From assembly GCA_945900945.1 (NCBI GenBank), contig CAMDKL010000013.1:1-58437 (forward strand): DNA of 58,437 nucleotides, given 5' to 3'. The translations under genes were made by a program, and so were the position numbers. This DNA is from Pirellula staleyi DSM 6068 (GTDB taxonomy: Bacteria > Planctomycetota > Planctomycetia > Pirellulales > Pirellulaceae). Positions 39,033 through 57,369 of the stretch are shown here, one piece after another; positions within the stretch are counted from its first letter, which is position 1, and every line of letters begins with the position of its first letter. The notes beneath the pieces are model-generated. The model was given only the letters and a program-made list of their open reading frames with translations. It was not told where the DNA came from and did not search any database.

Positions 39033-42000
39033 TCATTGTTTTTGAGTCGGTTTCACTTGTTTAAAGGTTGAGCTGTCGGCTTTTCCGTCTGCGAGCACGA
39101 AGGCCAACAGATCGAGTATTTGCTCCTTGTCCAACGTATTCAGCAGAGCAACCGGCATTATCGATACCTGTGATGGGCTGCGTGATACGACCGACTTCCT
39201 GGCAATCTTCTGCTCCGGTGCACCAACTGCTCCCGTTTGGATCGTGATGGAGTCGCCATCTTCTGCGACGATATTGCCACTAACGAAGATATCGCCCTCA
39301 AGCTCAAACTTGAACTTGCGATACTTTTCCTCGATGTTGCGAGAGGGCTCAATAATCTCCTGCAGAACAGCCTTTGCTTCTCCCTTGTATTTCTTTATGG
39401 TGTCGCTGATCTTTGGGCCGACTGCGAGATTCGAAGACACCGCGTGGTTCATTCCATGAGCATGTCCATCATGGTTTGCGCCTATAGCTGGGTTAGAGGA
39501 CTGATGGCATTGTGCACATGCGAGCGTGCTGAAAAGTTGCTGACCTCGGAAAAAGTCGCGATTTTGTGACACTCGATCCAAGTCTTTCTCAAAGTCGCTC
39601 CCCTTCCATTCGGTGATTTTGGCCTCGACTGGAGGATTCTTGACAAGGAACTCCTTTAGATCGTTCGTTACATACAGCACACCTCGCATTACCAAATGGT
39701 GCCCAGGAAACGAACAAATGTAAGGGTATGCTCCTTCAGTTGTCGGAGCCGTAAATTCAATGACCTCGGACTGACCATTCTCAACCAGTTTGCTAGCCCA
39801 AAGGATGTCAGAGCTCTCGGGTACATAACCAACGGAAAAGCCACCCGCTCCTAGTGCTACTGCTTTCAATCCTACATTGTCCGCCGTTCCTGGCTTCACG
39901 AGCAAGATGTTGTGCGGCATAAAGTCGACGTTTGCAAAAGTGAGCTTCACCTTTTTTCCAGGCTTCACTGTCAGCTCTTTGACGTCGTACATCATGCGTT
40001 CGACAACTGTGGCAATACGAATGGTCGTAAGATCCGGTGTGTCGCTAAGGATTCCGGACTTCTCCACGGCAGCTACTTTCTCTGCAGCGATGACGCCCCC
40101 TCGCATGGTGCTCTCGACATTGAACCATAAATGCTTCACTGTGTTTGCAGCGATTCTCGCATGGGGCTCAGGGGACTTTAAAAGATCGCCTAGCAACTCA
40201 ACGTTTTTTACGTTGTGCTGCTGATGCAACCAAAGAGCCTCAAGCAAATGATGAGCATCCGCCTGATTGTTCCTGTCGAATTGTTTGATCCATTGTCTCG
40301 TAGCTGCGATAACCGCCTTTGATTCGCGCTCGCTGAGTTCGATGCGAGTGCGATGGCGAATGCTGTCTACAGGCGATTTCAAATTATCGAGCAGTGTGGT
40401 AATCGGCTGACCATCGATTGCAACCAAAGTCTGCAATGGACGCCCTACAGCAGTCATGCGGTAGATGCGACCATGCGTATGGTCACGGTTAGGGTCACGC
40501 ACATTGTGTTGCATGTGTCCGATGATGGCATTGTGCCAATCGGAAATATAAAGTGATCCATCTGGCGCGAAGACGGCATCTGAAGGACGGAAATTCTTGT
40601 CGCCACTCATGAGCAATCCGCGAGATTTGTCGAGAGTTGTTGTTCCATCCGCGTTGGTCGTAGTGACGGTGAGATCATCGCCGGCAGGTTCACCCCATAC
40701 CGCCCCGGCTTCCGTGTTTCGATCAAGCTGATAATGCTTGATGCCGAGAAACCCAATCACATTGCAGATGAGGAAGTCCCCTTGCATCGATTCAGGAAAA
40801 TGCGTGCTGCTGATCACTTCGCACGCGGTTACCGGACGAACTTCTTTTTTCAGGAGTTCGTGCATCTTAAAGCCGTTGCCATCTGGGCGAACTTGATATG
40901 CCTTACCGCCAGTGCCATCGGTAGCGTAGTGGTATCCCCAGGAATCGAAAGCGATACCGTGTGGATTGGGAGAATTGACCGCGTGCATCGAGATGGTAAA
41001 ACGTCGTGGATCGAAACGATACATGGCGGACGCTTCGGTCCGCAACGACGAGCCCCAAGGGTGCTCATGATTATGCACCATAAAAACTCCGCTTTGCCAA
41101 TAGATAGCGCCATCAGGGCCATAGATCAAATTGTTTGCAGCGTGATGCGTATCCGATGAATCAAGCCCTTGCAGCAAATTGATTCGCACATCAGCCACAT
41201 CGTCGCCGTCGGTATCTTTGAGGAACAGTAGCTCTGGCGTGCAGGTGACGATGACGCCACCATTCCAAAACTCAAAGCCGAGCGGGTTTTGAACTCGAGC
41301 GAACTCGGTGACACGATCCGCTTTTCCGTCTTGATTGTCGTCGTTCAGGATGAGCAAGGCGTCGTTCATATCTTTGAGCGGTTCCCACTTGGGATACGTG
41401 GGCCAGACAGCTGCCCACAATCGGCCCTTGGTATCGAATTGCATCTGAACGGGATTCACCATCTGCGGGAACATCGATTCATCGGCGAAAAGACTAACCT
41501 CGAATCCTTTTGCGACTGCCATATGCTTTAGACCGTCTTCCCCACTGATGTAGTTCAGTGTACCTTCCTTTACGGCGCTGGAACTCTTGCTCCCGCCTCC
41601 AACGTTCGAAATCACATCGACAGGTTTCGGAACGTTGCTGTCGTCCACTTTGAGATCCTTGCCGTTGGAGACTGCCCATATGCGGGTATCACGATTCTTG
41701 GTCATCACGTCCAACATCGATAGCTCGTGTTGCAATACAACCGCGTTGGTTTGGTCGTTGGTAAATTGCAAAATCGATCGCCCGCCCCAAACATCGTTGC
41801 CATCTCGAGCGCGATAGCGATTGTTCCAATGATTGTCCTTGTCGAGCACTGCAGCTCGCAACCGCTCCATCGACATCGACGCGCTGACTCGATTGGCGAG
41901 AAGGCCTGCCGCAATCACTTCGGCGATCTGCCGATTGCCGTCCTCGGTCAAATGCACGCCGTTGATCGTGAGTGGCGTTTTCGAAGCGTTGAAGAGGTCC

Positions 42001-44234
42001 AACGACGGATGAAATAAATCTACGAATCCGACGCCCGCTTCCTTCGCCGCCGCTTCGGTCGCCTTGGTATAGGCTTCGAGTTGAACGTTGTGCGCTTTGC
42101 CATCGGGTACATTCGCGTTTTGGGTGTCTTCGTGCGCGATAGGGCTGAAGAGAACAATGCGAGGAAATGATTTACCATTCGCTATGGAACCTCGGGTCTT
42201 CTTTACAAAGGCCACCAGTTTTTTCTGATACTCCCCCGCTTTTTGTACCCCATCGAAGGATTCGTTGTAGCCAAAAAAGGCAAACACCACGTCCGCCTTC
42301 ACATGCTGCAAGTACTCTGTTATCGAGGCCGCACCCTTGCTTCGAGGAAACGAGTCAGGGCGATCACCGCTGGCGCTCATGTTGCGAAATCGTACTTGTT
42401 TGTCCATTAGGGCGCTCTGCAAAATCGTCTCCATCCATCCGTCGTGTTGCATGCGATCTGGTAAACCGTTGCCGAGGATGGCCACGATATCGTCCTTTTG
42501 AAACGCAAACGGCATGGGATCGCGATAATCCGCCGGGACATCCGCGAGCGCTGGCTCATTGGGCGTTACGTCGGGCTTCTTGCTGTCTTTTCGCTTGTTA
42601 TCTGCACCGGCGGACGATTTGGCTGCCGGTGAGCCTTTCGATTGTGGCACGCTGGTTTGTCCGTTGTAGGAGGTATAGCTAAGCTTGCCACCGTTCTTCA
42701 AATTAAAGTCCATGACCTCGGCTGCAGTAACATTATCGGAACGAAAGACCCCGTTCCGTTCTACATCGAGTAGTGTCAGCGTGAAACCGTCGAGACGGCT
42801 TTCAAACCCTTGTCGATTCCAAATCGTGATCTTATCGATCACAACCGGTTGCTCGAGGTCAAGTTCCCACCATGGAGTCGAGGAGCCCGAATTGATCGTA
42901 TGCGTCTGCCCACTCCTGTTAAAGTCGGGGTCTTTGTTTCCATCGATCGCCTTCGATGCAATCGCTTTGCCAAGTGTGCTGGACTGCGTAGCCTTTCCGT
43001 TTGGAGCGAGATTGATTCCGCGGCATATCACTTCCACCTCTGCAAGGGTTAGAATCCGTTTGTCGCCGGGGAGTTCGATGCGAACGAAGCGGGCTGGTTT
43101 GACTTGAGCAAGCGGCGCTACTTCCTCCGCAGGTTTTTCTTTCGCAGGTTTTTCCTTGTTCGGCGCCTCCTTCGTGCGAGCTTTCTTAGCGTTCGGATCA
43201 TTCGCGTTCGGATCCTTGGTGTTGTTGTTCGCAGGAATAGGACTGCTGAATCCGGCATACATTTCGGGCTTGATGCCTCGCGCGTTGGCGTTGCCACCAA
43301 AAGTGTTGGGTTTGAAAGGTCCGACGATGGAAATGTTTGCGTTTGGTTTGATCGACTCGTCCATGCTCAACGACCAGAAACAACCGTTGACGAGCATCCT
43401 GCGATAGCCGTCGTTCAGTATGTCCTCGGGCGTTCCGTAGAGAGTGGTAAAGACGCGGCCGACTCTTCCCGAGGCGGATTTATAAGTGCGAGTCCACTCG
43501 GAGGGCATTGGCGGTTTAGTCTCATCGGCAACTGAATCGGGAGTCATTCCATTGAGCGGCTGAGCCATCGTCAGAACTTCGCTATCGACCGGTTTTCCGA
43601 CGTAGCAACCGGCTTGAACCCAAATGTCTTTTACTCCGCGAAGGATGGGATGCGATTTTTTGTCGTCGACAATGGTGATTCGTGTGCTCTGGGAATGATT
43701 CTTTCCGTAATGCCCCACCCAAGTCTGCCCTAGCACTTGGTGTCCGAAGCCAAGCTCGTAGTCCGTCCCTTTCGAGTCATACGAATATTTCGAAAACGAA
43801 TCATTCGCAGTCATCTTAAAGGCATGCGTGGACGTACGCAGGCCGACCACTGGTCCACCCCGGTTCAGATAAGCGTCGAGGTGCTTCATTTGTGCTTGGG
43901 GGAAGTTTTGAAAACGCAGGAATACAACGGCAAGATCCGCAGTGGCCAACGCCTCCATACCTGGCATGTTCGAATTGCCTGCGACGATCTCGCCACTAGC
44001 CTTGTCTATGTTGAATAGCACCGTGCACTTGAAGCCATGATGCTGGGCCAAGATGCGTGCCAGTTCGGGCAACGATTCTTCCGAGCGGTACTCATGATCG
44101 CCAGCAAGGAAAACGATATGCTTCCCTTTTCCGGGTCCATTTGTACCTTCGAAAGAAAGTGGCCCCTCCCCCGACGAAGTTCGAATCATCGAAAGTACGA
44201 CCGCAAAGAAAGCGAAAAGCAAACGGATTGTCAT
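39033..44234 (-). CDS. Giant multidomain ThuA / SGNH hydrolase / dehydrogenase / cupredoxin / cytochrome c protein
   Basis: A 1733-residue secreted protein. Signal peptide about 1-22. ThuA-like domain about 35-290 (HIVFLAGDHEYRSEESLPELA). A Lys/Pro/Asn repeat linker follows at 338-378. A discoidin/F5-8C-type domain spans about 385-500. An SGNH/GDSL-like hydrolase spans about 580-790 (AILGNGLPDRM, FFGYNESFDG, GVHLTEDGN). A PVC-type sorbosone-dehydrogenase-like propeller spans about 900-1260, followed by HEAT-like helices. A cupredoxin domain (about 1415-1525) has ligands His1441, Cys1507, His1512 and Met1516. The C-terminal haem domain has CAQCH at 1573-1577. The copper and haem sites suggest electron transfer from the dehydrogenase. 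Substrate unknown. Confidence 0.85.
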   Translation of the reverse strand: MTIRLLFAFFAVVLSMIRTSSGEGPLSFEGTNGPGKGKHIVFLAGDHEYRSEESLPELARILAQHHGFKCTVLFNIDKASGEIVAGNSNMPGMEALATADLAVVFLRFQNFPQAQMKHLDAYLNRGGPVVGLRTSTHAFKMTANDSFSKYSYDSKGTDYELGFGHQVLGQTWVGHYGKNHSQSTRITIVDDKKSHPILRGVKDIWVQAGCYVGKPVDSEVLTMAQPLNGMTPDSVADETKPPMPSEWTRTYKSASGRVGRVFTTLYGTPEDILNDGYRRMLVNGCFWSLSMDESIKPNANISIVGPFKPNTFGGNANARGIKPEMYAGFSSPIPANNNTKDPNANDPNAKKARTKEAPNKEKPAKEKPAEEVAPLAQVKPARFVRIELPGDKRILTLAEVEVICRGINLAPNGKATQSSTLGKAIASKAIDGNKDPDFNRSGQTHTINSGSSTPWWELDLEQPVVIDKITIWNRQGFESRLDGFTLTLLDVERNGVFRSDNVTAAEVMDFNLKNGGKLSYTSYNGQTSVPQSKGSPAAKSSAGADNKRKDSKKPDVTPNEPALADVPADYRDPMPFAFQKDDIVAILGNGLPDRMQHDGWMETILQSALMDKQVRFRNMSASGDRPDSFPRSKGAASITEYLQHVKADVVFAFFGYNESFDGVQKAGEYQKKLVAFVKKTRGSIANGKSFPRIVLFSPIAHEDTQNANVPDGKAHNVQLEAYTKATEAAAKEAGVGFVDLFHPSLDLFNASKTPLTINGVHLTEDGNRQIAEVIAAGLLANRVSASMSMERLRAAVLDKDNHWNNRYRARDGNDVWGGRSILQFTNDQTNAVVLQHELSMLDVMTKNRDTRIWAVSNGKDLKVDDSNVPKPVDVISNVGGGSKSSSAVKEGTLNYISGEDGLKHMAVAKGFEVSLFADESMFPQMVNPVQMQFDTKGRLWAAVWPTYPKWEPLKDMNDALLILNDDNQDGKADRVTEFARVQNPLGFEFWNGGVIVTCTPELLFLKDTDGDDVADVRINLLQGLDSSDTHHAANNLIYGPDGAIYWQSGVFMVHNHEHPWGSSLRTEASAMYRFDPRRFTISMHAVNSPNPHGIAFDSWGYHYATDGTGGKAYQVRPDGNGFKMHELLKKEVRPVTACEVISSTHFPESMQGDFLICNVIGFLGIKHYQLDRNTEAGAVWGEPAGDDLTVTTTNADGTTTLDKSRGLLMSGDKNFRPSDAVFAPDGSLYISDWHNAIIGHMQHNVRDPNRDHTHGRIYRMTAVGRPLQTLVAIDGQPITTLLDNLKSPVDSIRHRTRIELSERESKAVIAATRQWIKQFDRNNQADAHHLLEALWLHQQHNVKNVELLGDLLKSPEPHARIAANTVKHLWFNVESTMRGGVIAAEKVAAVEKSGILSDTPDLTTIRIATVVERMMYDVKELTVKPGKKVKLTFANVDFMPHNILLVKPGTADNVGLKAVALGAGGFSVGYVPESSDILWASKLVENGQSEVIEFTAPTTEGAYPYICSFPGHHLVMRGVLYVTNDLKEFLVKNPPVEAKITEWKGSDFEKDLDRVSQNRDFFRGQQLFSTLACAQCHQSSNPAIGANHDGHAHGMNHAVSSNLAVGPKISDTIKKYKGEAKAVLQEIIEPSRNIEEKYRKFKFELEGDIFVSGNIVAEDGDSITIQTGAVGAPEQKIARKSVVSRSPSQVSIMPVALLNTLDKEQILDLLAFVLADGKADSSTFKQVKPTQKQ

Positions 44235-45914: not shown

Positions 45915-47414
45915 ATGATGCGATCGTCAAAATTACTTTTTGCCTCAATGATTGCCATCGCGTTCCAACCCCAATTGAACGCCCAGGATTCCGGCTATTC
46001 CGTCCCGTTTGGAATTGCAGTGGCGGAGTTGCCAACGGAGCCACAGTTTCAATATGCGTTTGCAACATCTGAACTAGAAGACGCGCCAGCAACGATCGAG
46101 GAACTCACAAAGCGACTCAGTGCATTGGAGTCCAAGGAGAGTATCGCCGAGACAGAGCTTAAAAAACTCGACGATGCGAAAAAGCCGGCTGCCGAAAAAC
46201 CAAAGTTCCCTAACGTTGCCATCAACGGCGTCTTTCAAGCGGACGCGGTTGCATTCAATCAGCTCGACTCGAGCCGCGATGCGTATGGCCGTGTCGAAGG
46301 GGGTGCGGATTTTCGGCGGGCGCGTTTGAGTGCCAGGGGAGCTGTTTCGGATTGCATGGATTACTGCATGCAAATGGACTTTGGCTTTTTCGGACGACCA
46401 ACGTTTACGGATGTATGGGCAGATTTCAAGGATGTTGGATCACTTGGAACAGTTCGGGTTGGCCAATGGAAACAACCGTTTGGATTGGAAACCGTGAGCA
46501 GCTTTCGCTACACGACGTTCATGGAGCGATCCTCGTTGTTTCAATCGTTCACGCCGTTTCGACGCATTGGCGTAGGTTTCTATAATCACTCCGCTGACCT
46601 GAATTGGACCTGGGCTGCGTCTTACATTAGAACCGGCCAAGATCAATTCGGTGGATCGCTCAGCACGGATGGCGGTAACGGCGGTGCCGCAAGATTAACT
46701 CACTTGCTTTGGCACAATGGAGCGAAAGGCGAAGACTATCTGCACGTAGGTGGCGGATACTTTCTGAACGCGCCACCCAACGAGCGAGTGCGATTCCGAA
46801 GTGTCCCTGAAATATTTGTTGGTGAGTTCGTGGTGCCGACCGGTGTTCCGCTTGGAACGAGCGGGCAGCCCGTTCCGGACATCGCAAACGGCACTCCGTT
46901 CTTTGTTGACACGGAGACGATCACAGGAACTAGCCTGACGCAAACGTTTGGTCTGGAGTCGATGTGGGTACGTGGACCGCTATCCTGGCAAAGCGAAGCT
47001 ATGGGGTGCTTTGTCGATGCTTCTACCAATGGCAACTCTTTTCTCAACGGTGCATACTCACAAGTCGGCTGGTTTCTCACCGGCGAACATCGTCCCTATG
47101 ACCGTAAAGCGGGAGCGATCGATCGCGTCATGCCCTTTCATAGCGTTTCGAAATGTGGTGGCGGCTGGGGAGCTTGGGAGATCGCCGGTCGTTGGTCTTA
47201 CTTGGATGTGACTGACCGTCAGATTCAAGGTGGCATGATGCAAAACATGACTGCAGGCTTGAACTGGTACGTGAACCCCAATTGCAAGTGCGTGTTCAAC
47301 TATGTCCACTCTTGGGGAGACTCGCGGCCAATACGAAAAGGTCTGATTACTTCCAATGATTTCATTAGCTCACAAACAGACGCATACGGTATGCGATGCC
47401 AACTCGATTTTTGA
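45915..47414 (+). CDS. Phosphate-selective porin O/P-like outer membrane protein
   Basis: A 499-residue protein starting ATGATG with a signal peptide (SSKLLFASMIAIAFQPQLNAQ). An N-terminal coiled coil (TIEELTKRLSALESKESIAETELKKLD, about 60-90) precedes a beta-barrel. Porin O/P features include GRVEGGADFRRARLSARGAVSDCMDYCMQMDFGF, VRVGQWKQPFGLE, FMERSSLFQSFTPFRRIGVG, FLTGEHRPYDRKAG, GAWEIAGRWSYLDVTD, a barrel-like C-terminal part (AGLNWYVNPNCKCVFNYVHS) and a final aromatic residue (MRCQLDF). OprP and OprO admit anions such as phosphate. Located upstream of the dabA gene on the same strand with a 350-base gap. Cotranscription is possible, not shown. Confidence 0.85.
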   Translation: MMRSSKLLFASMIAIAFQPQLNAQDSGYSVPFGIAVAELPTEPQFQYAFATSELEDAPATIEELTKRLSALESKESIAETELKKLDDAKKPAAEKPKFPNVAINGVFQADAVAFNQLDSSRDAYGRVEGGADFRRARLSARGAVSDCMDYCMQMDFGFFGRPTFTDVWADFKDVGSLGTVRVGQWKQPFGLETVSSFRYTTFMERSSLFQSFTPFRRIGVGFYNHSADLNWTWAASYIRTGQDQFGGSLSTDGGNGGAARLTHLLWHNGAKGEDYLHVGGGYFLNAPPNERVRFRSVPEIFVGEFVVPTGVPLGTSGQPVPDIANGTPFFVDTETITGTSLTQTFGLESMWVRGPLSWQSEAMGCFVDASTNGNSFLNGAYSQVGWFLTGEHRPYDRKAGAIDRVMPFHSVSKCGGGWGAWEIAGRWSYLDVTDRQIQGGMMQNMTAGLNWYVNPNCKCVFNYVHSWGDSRPIRKGLITSNDFISSQTDAYGMRCQLDF

Positions 47415-47764
47415 TCGAGACGTGTGACGAGCGAGATTTACCAGCCTTTTTCCTCGGAAAGCGGCCATTCCGATGGAAATCAATCCGAGGTCGTTTCTAG
47501 CGCGAGAACCGTGATAGCGGTGGTTGAAATAGCCCCGAACTGACCTAAATCCATCTGACAGATTTTGCTTCGATGAAGCTGTTTATTCGACTCTCCTTCA
47601 CTAAACGAATTGACAAGTTGGGGATCGCGAAGTCTTGCTTTTTTGTAATTTTTCTGACCTGTATTGATGCTCATCCTTGTGCCATACTCGATTGTGAACA
47701 GGAATATTCTCGGAATGCCGCGTTCTATTAAAAACTATTTACTCGATTTGAAACCTCAATTCAG
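47415..47764. other. 350-base gap between porin and dabA
   Basis: Holds the leader of the dabA gene. No convincing promoter, terminator or small gene was recognised. A minus-strand frame at 47480-47674 has no family features. Confidence 0.4.
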
Positions 47765-50700
47765 TTGATTGCCCCTTTAGATCTGAACGACAAAAATTCT
47801 GCGAGGCTGGCCAACGCAAATTTGGATTCTATACGCCACGCAATCGAGCACGCAAAACACTATTTGCCTACGCAGGGGCCGATCGCGGTTTTTATTCATC
47901 ACAACACACTGCATGCGTTGGAGCATTTGCCGTTTGACGAAGCGGTTCTCGAAGGATTGCGAACCTATGGATCGCAACCGTATTGGCAGGAATCTCGATA
48001 CCGTGAAGAGATGGCCCGCGATCGGATTCAAGTTAAAGACCTCCAATCCGTCTTAGGCCGCGACCTAGGACTATCGGGTTCGAAGGAAATTGCATCGGGA
48101 ACGACGCGATTCGACTTGAGGTACAACATGCTTCTTCACTCGGTGCTCACGGGCAGCGACGCGGAGCTGCGGTGGCTGTTTGCACAAAGCGATGCCCTCG
48201 ATCGATTTCGAACTGGCGTAGAGCCGCAAACAGGTTTTGCCGTGGTGGAAGCAACCCGGAATTGGATTATGCGCGATTTACGACTGCATCCTTCCGATTC
48301 ATCGACAGGGATTCCGGCAGCGATTCGAAGCATATTCCAGAGTTTTCCGGTTCGTACTATCGAATCCTGGAGCGATGAGACGTGGAAGCAACTTACGCTC
48401 CAAATTCTATGGCGAATTTGTCAAAATGGTGTTCAGTGTAGGTCACCAATGCAGCATCGATCGCCATCGACTTATCGGCATCGCGATATCCTTTTAAAGC
48501 TGTCCCATTTTGATTGCGATCTTCAAGTTCACGATTTGCTGATTCGTTTCACCTCGGCTTTCTTGGATCAGGGATTTGCCGGTTGGTCCATTCCAAACCG
48601 AGAGAAGGGTTTTTATCGTTGCTTCCTAGCACTCTTTGCTGAGAAGTCGCTATGGGCAGAAAAATGGTTGCAGCCATTGAGAGCGTTGATTGAGACGGAA
48701 CGACAAACGGTTTCGACGCCTATCGAATCCATTGCGAACTCACTGACTGCTTTAGGAGTTCCAGCCGACATAAGGGAAAAATACGTCAAAAAGACACTGC
48801 TGGCCTTGCCCGGTTGGACCGGAATGGTCGAACAGATGTCTTGCAATGCGAGTTGGACGCTTTATCCTGCTCCCAAAGACTCGCTCGAAGAGTTCCTTGC
48901 GGTTCGCCTGCTGCTCGATCGAATCTCGGCGGCGCATTGTCTCGAGGAACACCTTCCGCATGGATCCTATGAGCTTTCTGAGGTATTGGCCCTCGACCAT
49001 CCGGAACGTCATGATCCGCTTCGTCAGACGGTTCAACAGAGTGCATTTGATGTTTTTCAGTTAGCTCAACGATTGGGATGGTCGCCTCGCACACTCTACT
49101 CTTGGTCGACCGAGGAATGGCAAAGTGTGGTAGGCGAGATTGGTATTTTCGACGACCTGGAACGACGGCGACTATTTCACTTGGCATATGAGCATCGCTA
49201 TCGCAGCCAGATTTTGGATTCGATTTCTGAGCATTCACAATTCCCATTGAAGGTTCCAACGTCCGTTTCCTTTCAGGTGATCACGTGCATCGACGACCGC
49301 GAAGAATCCTTTCGTCGGCACTTGGAGGAGCTCGATTCGAGCGTCGAGACCTTTGGGGCGGCAGGTTTCTTCAACGTCCCAATGTACTTTCGCGGGGCTG
49401 CGGATGCGCATTTTATCCCGCTATGCCCGATCATGATGGTTCCGAAGAACTATGTCGAAGAAATAGGTCCACTTTCGTCTAAACAAGCTGAAACGAGACG
49501 AACTCAAACTCGAATGTTACTAGGCAAAGCATCTCAGACAATTCACATGAGTAGCCGGAGTCTATTTAGCGGCATACTGACTGCTTTGTTTGGCTCTTTA
49601 AACGCATTCCCTTTGGTCGCTCGCGTTTTGTTTCCGCGATTGACGTCACAGATTCGCAACAGATTTGGAAATCTTGTCCGACCAACGGTAGCCACGCAGC
49701 TACGGCTTGAGCGAGGCGACGATTCCGTTTTAACGGACAAAGGAGCCGAGGGATTTACGCTCGTAGAAATGGCGAACATGATCGAGCGTCTGACAGGCGA
49801 TCTTGGGATTCAAGGTTGTTTCGCGCCGCTGGTGATCGTATTTGGCCATGGTTCATCGAGTTTGAACAACCCCCATGAATCGGCATACAACTGCGGAGCG
49901 TGCGGAGGTGGTAAAGGCGGTCCCAACGCGCGGGCTGTCGCTCAGATGGCGAACGACCAGCGTGTACGAGCAATCCTCAAGGGGCGAGGTCTGGTCATTC
50001 CTGATGCGACGCTTTTCGTTGGCGGATATCACAATACCTGTGATGACTCCACTCACTACTTGGACGTCGATCGTATTCCACCCAACCATACCGCCAAGTT
50101 CTTGGCCGCTAGCCAAATTATTGAACGAGCCCGTAGAAGGAATGCGCATGAACGTGCTCGCCGTTTCTATTCGCTCGATATGACAAGCAGCGATGAAGAA
50201 GCGCTACGGCATGTTGAGCAACGATCGGAGGATCTAGCTCAAGTTAGGCCCGAATACAACCATGCGACGAATGCCGCTTGTTTTGTGGGACGCCGCGGTC
50301 GTACACGCGGGCTGTTTATGGATCGACGATGTTTTTTGACCTCCTACGACCCAACGACCGATGACGAGACGACTTCAATTCTGATGCGTATTATGCAAGC
50401 CGTGATTCCCGTCTGTGGCGGTATCTCACTGGAATACTATTTCTCGACGGTCGATAACGTTGGCTATGGTTGCGGAACCAAGCTGCCGCATAATATCACT
50501 TCCTTGATTGGTGTTATGGAGGGCGCAACAAGCGATTTACGCACTGGACTTAGCCAGCAGATGGTTGAGATTCATGAGCCCATTCGTATTCTGTTTATCG
50601 TTGAGGCCAAGCCTGAATCGATCTTGTCAATTATGGACCGCAATCCCCTAATTAACACATATATTCGCAATCACTGGGTACAAATCGCTACGCTCGATCC

Positions 50701-50890
50701 GTTGTCGAATCAGATTCAACTGTTTCAAGGTGACCGATTTGAGCCTTACCAACCTGGACCACACGTTCTGCCGTCGGTTTCGGTCTCACTCGATTGGTAT
50801 CGTGGTTGGCGTGAGCCGCTAGGATTTTCGAGGGTGGATATAAATGCTTTGCCTGCGCATAATAACTCACCTATTGGGAATAAAGTATGA
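47765..50890 (+). CDS. dabA: DabA, inorganic carbon transporter subunit (DUF2309)
   Basis: A 1041-residue member of DUF2309, starting at TTG 47765. In Halothiobacillus, DabA binds zinc in a beta-carbonic-anhydrase-like site and, with the NuoL-like subunit DabB, drives uptake of CO2 as bicarbonate using a cation gradient. The four zinc/active-site residues are conserved: Cys508 and Asp510 in [14 protein letters not shown], His695 in VFGHGSSS, and Cys710 in [18 protein letters not shown]. The His-Cys spacing of 15 equals the characterised enzyme. N-terminal [18 protein letters not shown] also matches. Length is at the upper end of the family. The stop overlaps the following gene by four bases, so translation is coupled. 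Confidence 0.95.
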
Positions 50891-52263
50891 GTGTTTCCGA
50901 GTGGACACAAGTATTCGGATCCATTACTTTCATTTGCCCATGCGTGCTATTGCTGATCATCGGAGTCAGTCTGCTCATCGGTCGACCTATGAGTGAATTG
51001 ATTCTTGGGCGATGGTTGAAAGCCATGGTAAGTCTTAGCTTGATATCTGCGTTAGCTGTGCTTGGAATTATGCTTGCCACAGGCTCACGTCGCGAATTGG
51101 TCGACCTAGGTAATATGGTTGAGATTCACGACGTGCACTTCCATTTCCATATCAAATTTATTTTTGATCGACTGAGCGTACCCATGGTGATTCTGTCGCT
51201 CGTCTTGTGTGGGACTGTCGGATCCTTTGGACTGAGTTACTTGCATCGCGATGCGGGCTTTCAGCGGTTTTTCTTGAGTTTTGCGATGTTTTTGGTAGGC
51301 ATGACGTTTGCATCTCTCGCTGGCACGATCGAAACGCTTTTTCTCGGATGGGAATTGGTCGGACTTTCCTCAGCTCTTTTGATAGCCTACTTTCACGAAA
51401 GGCCGTCACCCGTTGCGAACGGGCTTCGCGTCTGGGCGATATATCGATTTGCGGACGCAGCGTTTTTAGCCGCTGCGATCGCCTTGCACCATCAAACAGG
51501 TGAGGGCGATTTCAGTCTTCTGATGGGGGATGAGCCTTGGCCTGCTGGGACGGCTTCGCTCAGCGACAGTTCCGCCTTGCTAGTTGGGACATTTCTTTTG
51601 ATCGCAGCCGCAGGAAAATCCGGGCTCGTTCCATTTTCTGGTTGGTTGCCGCGTGCAATGGAAGGCCCAACTCCCTCAAGCGCCATATTTTACGGAGCCC
51701 TTTCGGTTCACTTGGGGGCGTTTCTACTTTTGCGTGTTAGTCCGATTTTGGATCGATCGGCATTGCTTAGCTGGATGGTGATCGGACTCGGCCTGATATC
51801 GGCTGGCTTTGCTGCGTTGGCGGGACGAGTTCAAACCGACATCAAGAGTGCACTTGCCTTTGCATCACTAACTCAAGTCAGCATTATCGTCGTCGAAATT
51901 GGTTTTGGCTTTCTTTATTTGGCCCTAATCCATTTAATTGGCCACGCGTGTATGCGTTCGCTACAGCTGCTGCGGGCACCCACTCTCCTTCGCGACTATA
52001 AAACGATGGAAAATGCCATCGGGAAATCTCTTGATCATGGTTCGCCTCATATCATTGCATGGCTTGGGACTTCGGCCCAGCGTCGACTCTATCGCGGCGC
52101 GATGGAACGTGGTTACATGGACGCAATCTTAGACGATCGCATTGTAACTCCATTCGTGCGTTTGTTTTCAACCTTTAATCGCTGGGAGCGAGGATGGACA
52201 CACTGGCTAGCTGGTTCACATCATGGTTCGGAACAGCATCAAGAAAAGATGCAGAATGAATGA
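50887..52263 (+). CDS. dabB: DabB-type NuoL-like proton/cation-conducting subunit
   Basis: A 458-residue polytopic membrane protein of the NuoL/Mrp antiporter family, with about fourteen hydrophobic segments. Charged positions expected in the channel are kept: Glu156 in [12 protein letters not shown], Lys244 in [26 protein letters not shown], Lys320 in [14 protein letters not shown] and a His in [12 protein letters not shown]. This is the pattern of DabB, which with DabA imports inorganic carbon. The start ATG overlaps the dabA stop by four bases. A C-terminal hydrophilic tail (about 395-458) has no recognised motif. The next gene, a second NuoL/M-like subunit, starts 45 bases downstream. Confidence 0.85.
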
Positions 52264-52308
52264 CTACTTTGCCAGCTAAGCTGAAACCTTTAGGAAGATT
52301 GTTAAATA

Positions 52309-53715
52309 ATGAATGAACTGCATCTGCCGTGGTTAGAACTTTGCATTCTAGTACCGGCGTTGGCATCCATCTGGGTAGGCAGGATTCTTGACGTTTCGCG
52401 GGCGCGTTCGGCAAGCCTAGCAGTCTCGGCAGTAACGTTGCTGCTTGCCTTGTCAGGTTGGATCGACTATGAAACGCTTTTTGCTTTCGAGGCCCACGAT
52501 CATTGGGACGTCGTCAAGTCGTTCATTGGACGAGAAGAATTCGTTATCGATAAACTCAGTGCTCCGCTGTTGCCACTAACCGCATTGCTTTTTTTTCTAA
52601 CGATGTTGGCGACGCCACGTGTTAAATTTGGAAAGTATTCATTCGCGTTGGGGTTGCTTTCTCTATCGTCGACTATCGCAGTCCTTAGTTGTAAGGATAC
52701 ATGGTTGCTAATAACACTTTTGGCTGTGAACGCGATTCCAATGTACATCGATTTGCGGACGAGAGGGAAATCAACGCGAGTCTTCGCTTTTCATATCGGC
52801 CTGTCGATGATATTGATGATTTTGGGTGCGGCTTGTTATGAATGGACAACTTCGGATTTCGGACGAGGGATCGGGATAGTCCTGTTGGTTGCTGCCGTAC
52901 TTATTCGGCGCGGCTGCGCGCCGTTGCATTGTTGGATTACGGATCTTTTTGAACACGCTGCCTTAGGCAATGCCCTGTTGTTCATCACACCGTTGGTTGG
53001 CGCCTATGCGACGATGAGGTTGGTATTGCCGATCGCACCCGATTGGGCATTGCGAAGCATTGCATTCCTTTCCTTGGCGACTGCACTATACGCTTCGTGC
53101 ATGGCGATCATACAGACCGATTCTCAAAGGTTTTTTTGCTTCCTATTTCTCAGTCATTCTGCACTGGTACTTGTTGGACTTGAAACGACAACCCCGATTG
53201 GGTTAACTGGGGCTTTATGCGTTTGGCTTTCAGTAGCTCTGTCCCTCACGGGCCTCGGATTAGCTTTGCGGTGTGTTGAAGCTAGAACCGGACCGCTTTC
53301 GCTGAATCAGTACCACGGCTTATACTCCCACATGCCGCATCTTGCAGGATTCTTTCTGTTGACGGGACTGTCTGCGGTTGGGTTTCCGTGTACGATCGGC
53401 TTTACTGGTACGGAATTACTGGTCGAAGCTGCGATTGAAATGTCACCTTGGGTCGGTGGAGTTGTTGTTGTATCCACTGCCCTAAATGGAATCGCCATTC
53501 TTCAAGCGTACTTTCGAATATTTACCGGAACGACGCATCACTCTACTATCCCTTTGGCGTCGCTGCGATCGGAGCGCATTGCGATTTTAACTTTCACTCT
53601 GTTGTTGCTGGGCGCTGGTCTTTGGCCCCAACCTGGTGTCCACTCAAGATATGATGCTGCTGTTGAACTGCTCGATCATCGCGCTGTTTCAAAACACATT
53701 GCAGTAACTAACTGA
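52309..53715 (+). CDS. Second NuoL/NuoM-like membrane subunit, lacking canonical charged residues
   Basis: A 468-residue polytopic protein clearly related to NADH dehydrogenase antiporter subunits, but diverged. The Glu of the conserved WEL motif is missing (WLLITLLAVNAIPMYI, with Ala/Val there). The Lys of GKxAxxPxHxW is Arg200 in IRRGCAPLHCWITDLFEHA, and the DLKR Lys is Gln273 in DSQRFFCFLFLSHS. PLHCWI, the hydrophobic profile and position after dabB support homology. It may act as a structural or second antiporter-like partner of DabA/DabB, by analogy with multi-subunit Mrp complexes. Its own transport activity is doubtful. Inference from residue reading, not from a model. Confidence 0.75.
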   Translation: MNELHLPWLELCILVPALASIWVGRILDVSRARSASLAVSAVTLLLALSGWIDYETLFAFEAHDHWDVVKSFIGREEFVIDKLSAPLLPLTALLFFLTMLATPRVKFGKYSFALGLLSLSSTIAVLSCKDTWLLITLLAVNAIPMYIDLRTRGKSTRVFAFHIGLSMILMILGAACYEWTTSDFGRGIGIVLLVAAVLIRRGCAPLHCWITDLFEHAALGNALLFITPLVGAYATMRLVLPIAPDWALRSIAFLSLATALYASCMAIIQTDSQRFFCFLFLSHSALVLVGLETTTPIGLTGALCVWLSVALSLTGLGLALRCVEARTGPLSLNQYHGLYSHMPHLAGFFLLTGLSAVGFPCTIGFTGTELLVEAAIEMSPWVGGVVVVSTALNGIAILQAYFRIFTGTTHHSTIPLASLRSERIAILTFTLLLLGAGLWPQPGVHSRYDAAVELLDHRAVSKHIAVTN

Positions 53716-53818
53716 TTTGTAATGGATAGACTTAGCGACATAGTCGATACATCGGAATACAATCGTCCGTTTCTTGGAAGAGTTTCATTTCCTGTACCCT
53801 GTATTGAGTCACTGCTTC

Positions 53819-55819
53819 ATGTCGACCACCATAAACGGACCCACCATTGCGACTAATCAGCCTCCTAGGGGCAATGTAGCAGGCTTTTTTAAATACTTTC
53901 GCTTCGATGCGCTCAGCGGCTTTTTGGTGTTTCTGATCGCCCTACCGCTGTGTTTGGGGATCTCATCGGCTTCGGAATTCCCCATCGTTGCTGGTGTTCT
54001 GACCGCAATCGTTGGCGCTTGCATCACACCGTTCATCTCGAATAGTGAGCTAACGATCAAAGGGCCAGCCGCTGGCTTGATCGTGATCTCCCTAGGAGCT
54101 ATTCAAGAGATGAAGCATATCTATGGCGAGGAGGGTGGTTATGCCGCAGTGCTTGCCATCGGCGTGGTCGCGGGAGTGATTCAAGTAGCCTTTGGACTTT
54201 TGAGAAGCGGAGTCATCGGTGAGTTTTTTCCATCGGCGGTGGTTCACGGGATGTTAGCTGCGATTGGTGTGATCATTATTGGCAAGCAGACTCACACACT
54301 CTTAGGTGTCCAACCAGAGAGCCATGACCCGCTGGGGTTGCTAGCTGAGATTCCCCGGTCGATTTGGAATATGGACCCATACGTAGCATGCATCGGTTTT
54401 ATCAGTTTGGCATTGCTTTTTGGAATGACATTCTTCAAAAACAAGACTGTCAAGAAAATCCCAGTTCCGATGGTAGTAATGTTGATAGCCATTCCGTTGG
54501 GGATGTATTTCGAATTGGGTCAGCCGCATAAATACATGTTCGGTGGCGTCGAACACTTCATATCTGAAAAAGCCCTGGTCAATATTCCAACGAACTTGCT
54601 CGCCGCAATCACATTTCCCAATTTTGCATCGCTACAGACATTCGCCGCTTGGAAGTGGGTTTTCATGTATGCTTTGATTGGTTCGTTGGAATCGATTCTT
54701 AGCGCCAAGGCAGTTGACATGCTCGACCCTTACCGTCGCAAATCTAACCTCAATCGTGATTTGCTTGCGGTAGGTGTCGGCAATACGCTTAGCTCGGCGA
54801 TCGGTGGTCTCCCGATGATTTCAGAAATCGTGCGAAGCAAAGCAAATATAGATAACGGTGCTAAAACTAGGTTTGCTAATTTTTGGCATGGTCTTTTCTT
54901 GTTGGTGAGTGTGTCCTTCTTAGCAAAATTTATTCATCTTATTCCAATGACGGCGCTTGCCGCGATGTTGATTTTTACCGGCTTCCGCCTTGCTTCCCCA
55001 AACGAGTTCCTCAAGGTCTATCGCACCGGTCGTGAGCAGTTGTTCATATTTGTTTTCACCATGATCATGGTATTAGCCACCGACTTGCTGGTCGGGATTA
55101 TGCTAGGCATCGTTGCCAAGCTAGTGATCCATACAGCCAACGGAGTTCCGATTACTTCGCTTTTCAAGCCGTTTCTGGATGTTCAAACGATGGACGACGG
55201 CAGCTGTGTCGTTTTTGCCAGCCAGTCTGCTGTGTTCTCCAACTGGATTCCGTTTCGTAGGCAAATCGAACACTTGGGTTTCGTTCAGCATTCCAATGTA
55301 ACGGTCGATCTATCAGGTACTAAATTTGTCGATCATACGGTAATGGAAAAGCTTCATGAACTCCAGGAGGACTTTATCCAGGAAGGCCTCAAACTCGATA
55401 TCGTTGGTTTAGATAGTCACCAGCAGATGAGTAATTCGAGTTTGGCGGCTCGCAAACAGCTCGGCCTACCTTTGATGCATCGACTTACTTTTACTATTCC
55501 CGAAGATTTAGAGCCGTCCTTGATGGCGTTATTATCTAACGCGGATTTGCAGGATTCCGTAAAAAGCAGTTGGAAAGCAGTGCTTCCTAGTTCGTCGGCT
55601 GGCAATTTGTTTAGAATTGAAGCTTTGATTCCGCGAGACAAAAGTCAACGTCTGATTGAATCTATACGCCGTACGATGCCGACGCTGAATGGGATGACGA
55701 TGTTGCTTGAAACTGTCGGGGTTTTGCATAGCTCCTCTCAATCATGGACTCCAAGTTCGGAAGAAGCTAAGCTTGCAATACGCCGCATTCGTGACGATTT
55801 CGTAAGTAAGAAACTCTAG
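53819..55819 (+). CDS. SulP family anion (bicarbonate/sulfate) transporter with STAS and C-terminal extension
   Basis: About 666 residues from ATG 53819 (a TTG at 53774 would add 15). The SulP core has LIALPLCLGISSASEFPIVAGVLTAIVG, GPAAGLIVI, GSLESILSAKAVDML, GGLPMISEIVRSKANIDNGAKTRFANFWHGL and about ten to twelve membrane segments. A STAS domain follows, with VTVDLSGTKFVDHTVMEKLHEL. About 120 further residues follow the STAS domain, with two beta-alpha-beta-like stretches (RLTFTIPEDLEPSLMALLS and FRIEALIPRDKSQRLIESIR), which recall PII-like regulators. In this locus bicarbonate is the likely substrate, given the adjacent dab genes. Sulfate is possible. It is 104 bases after the previous gene and 3 bases ahead of the regulator gene. 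Confidence 0.85.
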   Translation: MSTTINGPTIATNQPPRGNVAGFFKYFRFDALSGFLVFLIALPLCLGISSASEFPIVAGVLTAIVGACITPFISNSELTIKGPAAGLIVISLGAIQEMKHIYGEEGGYAAVLAIGVVAGVIQVAFGLLRSGVIGEFFPSAVVHGMLAAIGVIIIGKQTHTLLGVQPESHDPLGLLAEIPRSIWNMDPYVACIGFISLALLFGMTFFKNKTVKKIPVPMVVMLIAIPLGMYFELGQPHKYMFGGVEHFISEKALVNIPTNLLAAITFPNFASLQTFAAWKWVFMYALIGSLESILSAKAVDMLDPYRRKSNLNRDLLAVGVGNTLSSAIGGLPMISEIVRSKANIDNGAKTRFANFWHGLFLLVSVSFLAKFIHLIPMTALAAMLIFTGFRLASPNEFLKVYRTGREQLFIFVFTMIMVLATDLLVGIMLGIVAKLVIHTANGVPITSLFKPFLDVQTMDDGSCVVFASQSAVFSNWIPFRRQIEHLGFVQHSNVTVDLSGTKFVDHTVMEKLHELQEDFIQEGLKLDIVGLDSHQQMSNSSLAARKQLGLPLMHRLTFTIPEDLEPSLMALLSNADLQDSVKSSWKAVLPSSSAGNLFRIEALIPRDKSQRLIESIRRTMPTLNGMTMLLETVGVLHSSSQSWTPSSEEAKLAIRRIRDDFVSKKL

Positions 55820-55822
55820 AAA

Positions 55823-56509
55823 GTGGCGAGGAGTTTTTTGGACCTCTTGGTTGTCGAAGACGACGTAGTCTTAGGTAAGGCTTTGGTCAAAGGTTTGACG
55901 GAGGGAGGTCACGTCTGCATCTGGATTCAAAATGGTTGCGAAGCAGTCGAACGATGCAAAAACCAACTTTTTGATATCGCGGTTCTCGATCTTATGCTTC
56001 CGGACTTACCGGGTCTTCAAGTTCTTCGAGAATTTCGAATCCATCAACCAAGTCTCGCAGTCCTTATTTTAAGTGCCCTGGGGACAGTGGAAGAACGCGT
56101 TCATGGCCTGAATTCTGGTGCAGATGACTATTTAGTTAAGCCTTTCGCGTTTGCTGAACTGGTTGCCAGGTTATCAGTCCTGGAGAGGCGCAAAGTACAA
56201 TCGCCAGTCACACGATTGCAATCCGGATCGCTTGCCATCGAATTGACAAGCCGACGAGTCACACGTGACGATTCTGATATCGACCTTACCCCGACCGAAT
56301 ACAAGCTACTTGAGTTTTTGATGCGAAACGCCGGTGAAGTTGTCACGCGTCGCATGCTATGCGAACATCTTTGGGAATCGGACTGGGAGGGTGTTACGAA
56401 TGTTATCGAGGTCCATATCAATCGACTGCGCAACAAACTCAATAAAGGCTTTGATTCAGGCTTGATTTACACAGTTCGAGGCATTGGCTATGCACTTCGG
56501 CAAAATTAG
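55823..56509 (+). CDS. OmpR family response regulator
   Basis: A 228-residue regulator starting at GTG 55823, 3 bases after the SulP stop. The receiver domain has VVEDD, phospho-acceptor Asp in DIAVLDLMLPDLPG, Ser/Ala in LILSALGTVEERVHG and Lys in DDYLVKPFAF. The winged-helix DNA-binding domain follows, with LTPTEYKLLEFLMRNAGEVVTRRMLCEHLWESDWEGVTNVIEVHINRLRNKL and YTVRGIGYALR. All key residues are intact. It lies directly after the transporter genes and overlaps the histidine kinase start by 20 bases. It probably regulates this locus, which is inference from position. Confidence 0.95.
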   Translation: MARSFLDLLVVEDDVVLGKALVKGLTEGGHVCIWIQNGCEAVERCKNQLFDIAVLDLMLPDLPGLQVLREFRIHQPSLAVLILSALGTVEERVHGLNSGADDYLVKPFAFAELVARLSVLERRKVQSPVTRLQSGSLAIELTSRRVTRDDSDIDLTPTEYKLLEFLMRNAGEVVTRRMLCEHLWESDWEGVTNVIEVHINRLRNKLNKGFDSGLIYTVRGIGYALRQN

Positions 56510-56633
56510 ATCGACCTTTCGATCCCTTCGATTCCGATTAATGCTGCTCAATGCCATCGTCGTCTTGCTCGCATCGATGGGTACCTATTCGCGGAACCGG
56601 CGACGAATTGGACCATCTGTCACTTACGTTTAA
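56490..56633 (+). pseudogene. Histidine kinase 5' fragment (first transmembrane segment)
   Basis: The original kinase start ATG 56490 overlaps the regulator stop. It reads MHFGKIRSTFRSLRFRLMLL then NAIVVLLASM, i.e. the cytoplasmic N-terminus and first membrane segment. This frame then runs off into a short tail and stops at TAA 56633. The kinase core continues in another frame. A deletion near 56575-56590 has removed the sensor domain and second membrane segment and shifted the frame. Confidence 0.75.
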
Positions 56634-57369
56634 CTTGTTGCTTGATCGTATCGCCAGTTTTCTTCAACAGCGACGTGAATTTCTGGCGAACGCCGCGCAC
56701 GAATTGCGAACGCCACTCGCAGCGCTTCGGAGCACCACGGAGGTTGCATTGAGGTCCGAACGAACGACACACGAGTATCAAGAGCTGCTAGGGACGATCA
56801 TCGAAGAAAGTGAATCGCTCGAAGTGTTGGTCAATCAGCTGCTGCTACTGGCCGAAACGGAGGCCGATACTGAAACGCTCCTGTTGACGGGTGAACCGGT
56901 GGCGCTCGAAGAATTGATCGAAAGATCGTGCGACATGTTTGTTGGCGTCGCGGAGAGTCGATCGATTGAACTCCGCTTCAAAATCGTGCGTCGAGGCATG
57001 GTCAAGGGAAACCGACATCATTTGCGACAAGTGATTAACAATTTGGTCGACAACTCGCTAAAATTCACTCCCGCCGGAGGAAAGGTCAACATTACACTTG
57101 ACGTAGATTCGTTGACGTCAATGGCTTGTTTTTCCGTTCAAGACACCGGAGTCGGAATCGCCGTAGATGAAAAGCCGCGATTGTTTGATCGCTTCTATCG
57201 AGGTGATCGATCGCGACGGCGCGACGCGGTGACTCGCGGGACCGGGTTGGGCCTGAGCATCTGTCAAGCGATCGTCAAAGGGCACGGCGGCACACTCTCC
57301 GTCGAAAGCCAAATCGGTCAAGGTAGTTGCTTCCTGGTATCACTGCCGCAGTATCATCCGTCCGAATAA
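56551..57369 (+). CDS. Histidine kinase core, sensor region deleted and frameshifted
   Basis: A 272-codon frame. The first ten residues are out-of-frame sequence. From residue 11 it is a normal kinase: HAMP end VPIRGTGDELDHLSLTFNLLLDRI, H box FLANAAHELRTPLAALRST (His50), N box HHLRQVINNLVDNSLKFTPAGGK, G1 VQDTGVGI, F box LFDRFYRGD and G2 GTGLGLSI. The catalytic part is therefore intact, but the periplasmic sensor and second membrane segment are missing and translation must begin anew at ATG 56551 or another internal start. It may be a non-functional kinase, a soluble constitutive kinase, or a sequence/assembly error. Regulator partner is encoded immediately upstream. Convergent with the HD-domain gene. 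Confidence 0.75.
   Translation: MPSSSCSHRWVPIRGTGDELDHLSLTFNLLLDRIASFLQQRREFLANAAHELRTPLAALRSTTEVALRSERTTHEYQELLGTIIEESESLEVLVNQLLLLAETEADTETLLLTGEPVALEELIERSCDMFVGVAESRSIELRFKIVRRGMVKGNRHHLRQVINNLVDNSLKFTPAGGKVNITLDVDSLTSMACFSVQDTGVGIAVDEKPRLFDRFYRGDRSRRRDAVTRGTGLGLSICQAIVKGHGGTLSVESQIGQGSCFLVSLPQYHPSE

Follow-up and report, generated by a model that had tools for sequence, protein, structure and literature searches.

A planctomycete DAB-type inorganic carbon locus with a short DabB, no finger glutamate in DabA and a NuoM-like third subunit that may complete the proton path

We examined an inorganic carbon locus in a 58,437-nucleotide stretch of DNA from Pirellula staleyi DSM 6068 (contig CAMDKL010000013.1; the whole stretch is referred to here as the window). 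This contig belongs to a 6.47-Mb genome in which PF10070 matches only once. Judging from its sequence, the locus very probably functions as a DAB system. On balance, we favor a reading in which it encodes a PMF-driven, three-subunit accumulator of the DAB type, with the second half-channel located in the third subunit and with a linked SulP anion carrier; the rewired proton path is the more tentative part of this proposal. For each of these points (formation of the complex, coupling to the PMF, the proton route and the substrate of SulP) we infer the property from the comparisons described below. The one-way hydration of CO2 coupled to proton flow is the question of the 2026 structure paper on DAB2, in whose model the finger glutamate Glu444 of DabA is central (PMC13144422). 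A subfamily that lacks this glutamate and possesses a short DabB and an extra antiporter subunit therefore constitutes a natural test of the DAB2 model: either a different chain has taken over the coupling acid or the model has to be revised. The preliminary description of this DNA had proposed a DabA/DabB inorganic carbon system, which is well supported by the family, the zinc site and the gene pairing, but it missed the short DabB, the absent finger glutamate and the probable place of the third gene in the coupling path.

Genes for active inorganic carbon uptake are common in planctomycetes: of 294 genomes sampled from the phylum, 39 contain PF10070, and of 60 genomes close to that of the window, 36 carry a DabA relative; both figures include the window's own genome. 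The loci used for comparison were 40 regions chosen from these hits and the best 80 of at least 586 relatives from a genome scan, a sample that leans toward the window's kind because of how regions and relatives were chosen. These 120 loci (window excluded) correspond to 113 clusters at 97% DabA identity, and 109 are of the long type after L096, L097, L099 and L100 were set aside. When planctomycete genomes were searched for the gene order, dabA-dabB-third gene recurred in 83 of the 87 non-redundant loci with at least 3 kb of downstream sequence, more than expected by chance. The four exceptions have dabA without dabB and count against the main reading; L114, L116 and L145, all with a long-type dabA, have neither dabB nor the third gene nearby, while L166 lacks dabB but retains the third gene. 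Both L114 and L166 come from a single Schlesneria MAG. In the 64 loci with sufficient flank, a SulP gene (>80 bits) lies nearby in 34: downstream in 25 and upstream in 7 on the same strand, and on the opposite strand in 2. The same core was found in L138 and L152, for which the records indicate Verrucomicrobiota. A further 21 loci, taken with 1.5-kb flanks from the class of G268, showed DabA in 20, DabB in 21 and the third gene in 15; in four others of the 21, the match was confined to the second half of the fusion in L096 described below, and L187 and L200 had neither. A plasmid-borne third gene was also sought and rejected: records with a match numbered 148, and the 15 of them listed encode subunits of complex I wherever an annotation exists.

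Given these frequencies of the core and of SulP, the combination of genes is not unusual for a planctomycete, as had been supposed, and the neighborhood was already printed in 2017. The accessible part of that study describes ybcC upstream of a nuoL homologue, often with SulP and NuoM genes adjoining, and reads the arrangement as a new membrane complex whose function is left open (PMC5700660). The novelty looks to lie instead in the residues, that is, in the loss of the finger, the short DabB and the third subunit.

DabA (47765..50890, plus strand), a zinc beta-carbonic anhydrase-like subunit of 1041 aa, matches PF10070 with an E value of 5e-227 and 756 bits, against a cut-off of 25, and scores 221 bits with DabA2 (9rd0_A). 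Its alignment required a length of 850-1240 aa, which retained 107 of the 109 long-type loci and, with the window, gave 108 rows. The zinc ligands C508, H695 and C710 and the dyad D510/R512 are kept in all 108, which bears out the earlier remark that the zinc residues are conserved. Residue roles are taken from the work on DAB2 (PMC13144422), where the finger glutamate Glu444 is essential. In the 108 long-type rows, no acid occurs in any of columns 600-619, a range that spans both placements of the finger (605 by phmmer, 607 by MAFFT); across columns 599-622 an acid is seen in two rows only, L082 and L094, at the ends. The finger glutamate is kept in 7 of 7 rows of another clade, made up of carboxysomal Nitrobacter, Nocardia, Haloarcula, Thiodictyon and the planctomycete loci L097, L099 and L100. 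A DabA tree of 32 rows separates these seven from the other 25 with support of 100/100, with the proviso that long branches were flagged (L096 longest, and Nitrobacter too) and that such joins may be false. A single deep branch carries the residue exchange, which thus represents about one evolutionary event, a point against the main reading. The model of DabA, predicted without partners, has a mean pLDDT of 83 and low confidence in the finger, which likewise counts against that reading, and a Foldseek search with it gave 0 matches at E <= 0.001, with 9rd0 absent among the 50 matches listed.

DabB (50887..52263, plus strand; PF00361, E 5e-36, and PF00662) is a NuoL-like protein of only 458 aa. 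By alignment, it ends after TM11 and a C-terminal helix and has no TM12-14. Rows were required to cover more than 340 residues and to be shorter than 760 aa, with L097 and L100 set aside, so that 101 of 107 sequences plus the window gave 102 rows (95 clusters at 97%). Each of the 102 has Glu at the position of DabB2 Ile151, Tyr at His260 and Arg at Lys347, the first of these being the complex-I glutamate, which DAB2 has lost. DabB2 Arg182, Asp185, Lys235, Ser256, Lys310 and His339 are unchanged in every row, and His343 in 101 of them. Ser316, which is needed in DAB2 (PMC13144422), is replaced by Ala in 93 of the 102 rows, and this counts against the main reading. The stretch that follows H353 has a median of 110 residues, compared with 275 in NuoL and 188 in L100, and exceeds 130 only in L177 (146) and the L096 fusion (281). 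No counterpart of NuoL K399/D400 was found in the 102-row alignment.

The third subunit (52309..53715, plus strand; 468 aa; PF00361) is NuoM/MrpD-like, with the NuoM subfamily as its best NCBIfam match, below the cut-off. With coverage above 380 residues and a length below 620 aa required, 85 of 101 sequences and the window gave 86 rows in 79 clusters. No acid is present at the position of NuoM E144 (the TM5 Glu) in any of the 86; Lys234 of TM7 has become Arg in 85 and Cys in one; and Lys265 of TM8 is Met, Leu, Ile or Val throughout. Position 369 in TM12, on the other hand, is acidic in 86/86 (85 Glu, 1 Asp). Glu369 aligns one column off NuoM E407, which counts against the main reading. The AF2 model (mean pLDDT 93) has the NuoM/MrpD fold with TM7 and TM12 broken and with R200 and E369 near the breaks, and its best Foldseek match is 8e9i_M (E 1.8e-18).

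Natural fusions bear on the same subunit. At locus L096, DabB is a 625-aa chain in which PF00361 occurs twice: a short DabB comes first, and the end resembles the third subunit, matching its residues 224-407 (E 4e-11). The 11.6 kb retrieved for this locus contain no third gene of its own, and its DabA has Gln at the finger position. In L097, of the other clade, an 848-aa DabB adds a similar NuoM-like half (E 7e-8) and the finger glutamate is kept. Carboxysomal Nitrobacter has a separate 253-aa protein that resembles the L097 end (E 1e-5, and only 0.026 to the window); it has no Pfam match and, by eye, no TM12 acid, and the finger glutamate is again kept at the locus. Because L097 and Nitrobacter keep this glutamate beside such a half, a half subunit can have another role, which counts against the main reading; such a NuoM-like half probably represents an old accessory. 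Within the clade of the window, its presence coincides with the disappearance of both the finger acid and DabB TM12-14. Fusions of DabB with the third gene were also considered in L163, L088 and L095 and discarded, the long frames being, by eye, overruns in another frame.

These observations also bear on the other roles that the third subunit could have. The chemistry might be the same and the subunit only a scaffold or regulator, with protons following some other path through DabB and water at the DabA finger. The N-terminal half, devoid of the standard NuoM proton residues in all 86 rows, would suit such a role, as would the occurrence of a NuoM-like half together with the finger glutamate in the other clade. 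Against it stand the acid at 369 in every row and the TM7 Arg in 85 of 86; moreover, in L096 it is precisely the second half that is joined to DabB, and DabB has no TM12-14 of its own. We therefore regard a purely structural or regulatory subunit as unlikely. A second complete proton channel, with at least two protons per CO2, has in its favor the full NuoM/MrpD fold and the suggestion made in 2017 that additional membrane genes imply additional ions (PMC5700660), but it is very improbable in view of the missing TM5 Glu and TM8 Lys, the exchange of the TM7 Lys for Arg and an L096 fusion that does without the N-terminal half of the third subunit. That the locus hydrates no CO2 at all, and is instead a cation/proton exchanger or a membrane-potential system with DabA as a sensor, is also very improbable, for although sodium use has been argued for the homologue MpsAB (PMC13144422) and DabB keeps the complex-I glutamate lost by DAB2, the full catalytic set is invariant (108/108) and SulP is so often a neighbor (34/64).

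Under the favored three-subunit reading, CO2 would enter by diffusion and DabA, held at the membrane by DabB, would hydrate it on a buried zinc site only during inward proton flow through the antiporter part. Since hydration would occur only with inward protons, bicarbonate would accumulate and the reaction would not run back. The first half-channel would consist of DabB E156, R187, D190, K244, K320, H349 and H353. In DAB2, the second is formed by DabB TM12-13 and the DabA finger Glu444 (PMC13144422); here, where DabB ends after TM11, the third subunit would provide it through TM8-13 of its C-terminal half, Glu369 being placed on the broken TM12. The linked SulP would act as an anion carrier, probably for bicarbonate, and the accumulated bicarbonate would feed ordinary carboxylases. 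More tentatively still, planctomycete DABs could represent a third way of building a PMF-driven carbonic anhydrase, where a single working path is made from two chains that have lost opposite halves (DabB lacks TM12-14, and its NuoM-like partner has no functional first half), the TM12 acid replaces the finger glutamate, the retained complex-I glutamate of DabB provides an open/closed gate that DAB2 lacks, and the P-II domain of SulP ties bicarbonate import to the energy or carbon state of the cell. In the literature searched, we found no experiments on members of this DAB subfamily, which counts against the main reading, and recognized no description of the residue exchange or of a SulP-P-II fusion.

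The SulP transporter (53774..55819, plus strand; PF00916, E 6.5e-57) probably starts at ATG 53819, since its relatives align from residue 15. Among 45 aligned SulPs (window included), 16 stop after the STAS-like segment and 29 are longer; P-II (PF00543) scored in 17 of the 20 longer C-termini tested (best 6.8e-13). The C-terminal domain of the window's SulP (55454..55816, plus strand) is a degenerate counterpart of P-II: it gave no P-II score, nor did the L061 SulP in a whole-protein scan, and both have a shortened loop. At L143:8045-8395, a P-II domain is fused to the C-terminus of a SulP beside DAB genes. By analogy with SbtA-SbtB (PMC13249358), the fused P-II domain may gate transport.

What the bicarbonate might serve was also considered. 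It had been suggested that the locus supplies bicarbonate for anaplerotic or other carboxylations. This fits a genome in which no RuBisCO large subunit was found (no PF00016 match, and no RuBisCO or carboxysome link), but the locus is probably not the only bicarbonate source, because the genome carries one separate beta-carbonic anhydrase and one fusion of SulP with beta-carbonic anhydrase (L215:2883-5162, 760 aa). Many relatives also have PF00484 in open frames of about this length. Replacement of carbonic anhydrase by DAB was not supported, as 54 of 60 genomes (own included) carry PF00484, the one carbonic anhydrase class searched. It is likely that the locus supplies bicarbonate to heterotrophic carboxylases in parallel with carbonic anhydrase, over which, by analogy with DAB2, its advantage would be a one-way, PMF-driven accumulation.

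The run of genes on one strand with small gaps is as first described: ORF calls and Pfam and NCBIfam scans agree, all genes are on the plus strand, and dabA and dabB overlap by 4 bp. The gene list likewise holds for dabA, dabB, the third gene, SulP and the regulator, but its title left out an OprP/O-type porin (45915..47414, plus strand; PF07396, E 4e-45). The porin, 78-79% identical in L061 and L062 and there placed downstream of the kinase, has a match in 8 of the 109 long-type loci; it is an optional neighbor of the locus and a possible outer-membrane entry for anions. Elsewhere in the window, 39033-44234 on the minus strand is a single 1733-aa ORF with a multi-domain look and, by eye, a CXXCH motif near its end. 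Among the best 80 of at least 586 relatives, the nearest with a named record is L101, Pirellula sp. CoA8_C32, with a DabA 77% identical.

The claim that the locus has its own two-component system is not borne out in this sequence. The OmpR-family response regulator (55823..56509, plus strand; PF00072 and PF00486) is 75% identical in L061 and L062, but the kinase gene is broken in this sequence. Positions 56490..56585 (plus strand) encode a remnant of the kinase N-terminus, residues 3-34 of the 499-aa kinase of L061 (87.5% identity over 32 aa); thereafter the sequence lacks about 608 bp, covering the sensor, that are present in L061 and L101, and its frame shifts. An intact kinase with sensor, TM and HAMP is therefore not encoded here. 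What was taken for a kinase core, a sensorless HisKA/HATPase ORF at 56551..57369 (plus strand), is by DNA alignment to L061 and L101 the remains of this damaged gene, and residues 38-197 of the L061 kinase have no match anywhere in the genome. The damage may be a real deletion or an assembly error. A regulator/kinase pair at least 45%/42% identical to that of the window is near in 17 of 81 loci and divergent upstream in 15 of those 17. Upstream of dabA, 101 bp before its start, lies a conserved 30-bp box (47634..47663, plus strand), a candidate promoter or operator: 28 of its 30 bases are identical in L061, where the leader has otherwise diverged, whereas six shuffled leaders reach 18-20. Among the 109 long-type loci it is matched only by the nearest relatives, L061 and L101, the next best having 11 mismatches. 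Sigma-70 and terminator scans gave 11 and 12 sites, compared with 11.2 and 14.0 in shuffles.

Several known systems resemble this locus. On the accessible text of PMC5700660, it very probably belongs to the COG3002 clade C operons, which likewise have dabA upstream of dabB together with NuoM and SulP genes; as described there, their function is left open, with no mention of a residue exchange, fusion or P-II domain. With DAB2 of Halothiobacillus neapolitanus (DabA2/DabB2, PDB 9rd0), it shares the DabA zinc site and D/R dyad and a NuoL-like DabB with the Arg, Asp, Lys, Ser, Lys, His and His path residues. However, DAB2 has two subunits and the window an additional third; DabA2 has 870 aa with Glu444, compared with 1041 aa without it; and DabB2 has 551 aa, 15 TM and Ile151, His260 and Lys347, compared with 458 aa and Glu, Tyr and Arg at those positions. 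The carboxysomal three-part DAB of the Nitrobacter hamburgensis plasmid (L217) is similar in its DabA of about 1040 aa, its DabB and a third, possibly NuoM-related part. It differs in that a full-length DabB with His260 and Lys347 lies upstream of dabA, the finger glutamate is kept, the third part has only 253 aa, P-II is a separate gene, and the genes lie beside those for RuBisCO and the carboxysome. Plasmid 1 of this organism (L217:1-9744) carries a pair of DUF2309 genes beside carboxysome genes; a P-II gene comes after each of the pair, and both P-II genes share one protein accession. DAB1 of H. neapolitanus, which we liken to L217 by description only, rescues carbonic anhydrase-free E. coli with its interstitial PF00361 gene, according to PMC7714395. 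Set against this carboxysomal, DAB1-like type (DAB1 by description), the window has three genes, but the third of them encodes a full NuoM-like protein. Finally, the BicA/SulP bicarbonate transporters share the SulP fold with the window's carrier, which has 6ki1, presumably BicA, among its PDB matches. It scores 106.7 bits against the BicA model NF050096, below the cut-off of 880, and is not BicA by that cut-off; DAB-linked SulPs, unlike BicA, often end in a P-II domain, and such SulP-P-II fusions are possible self-regulated bicarbonate carriers.
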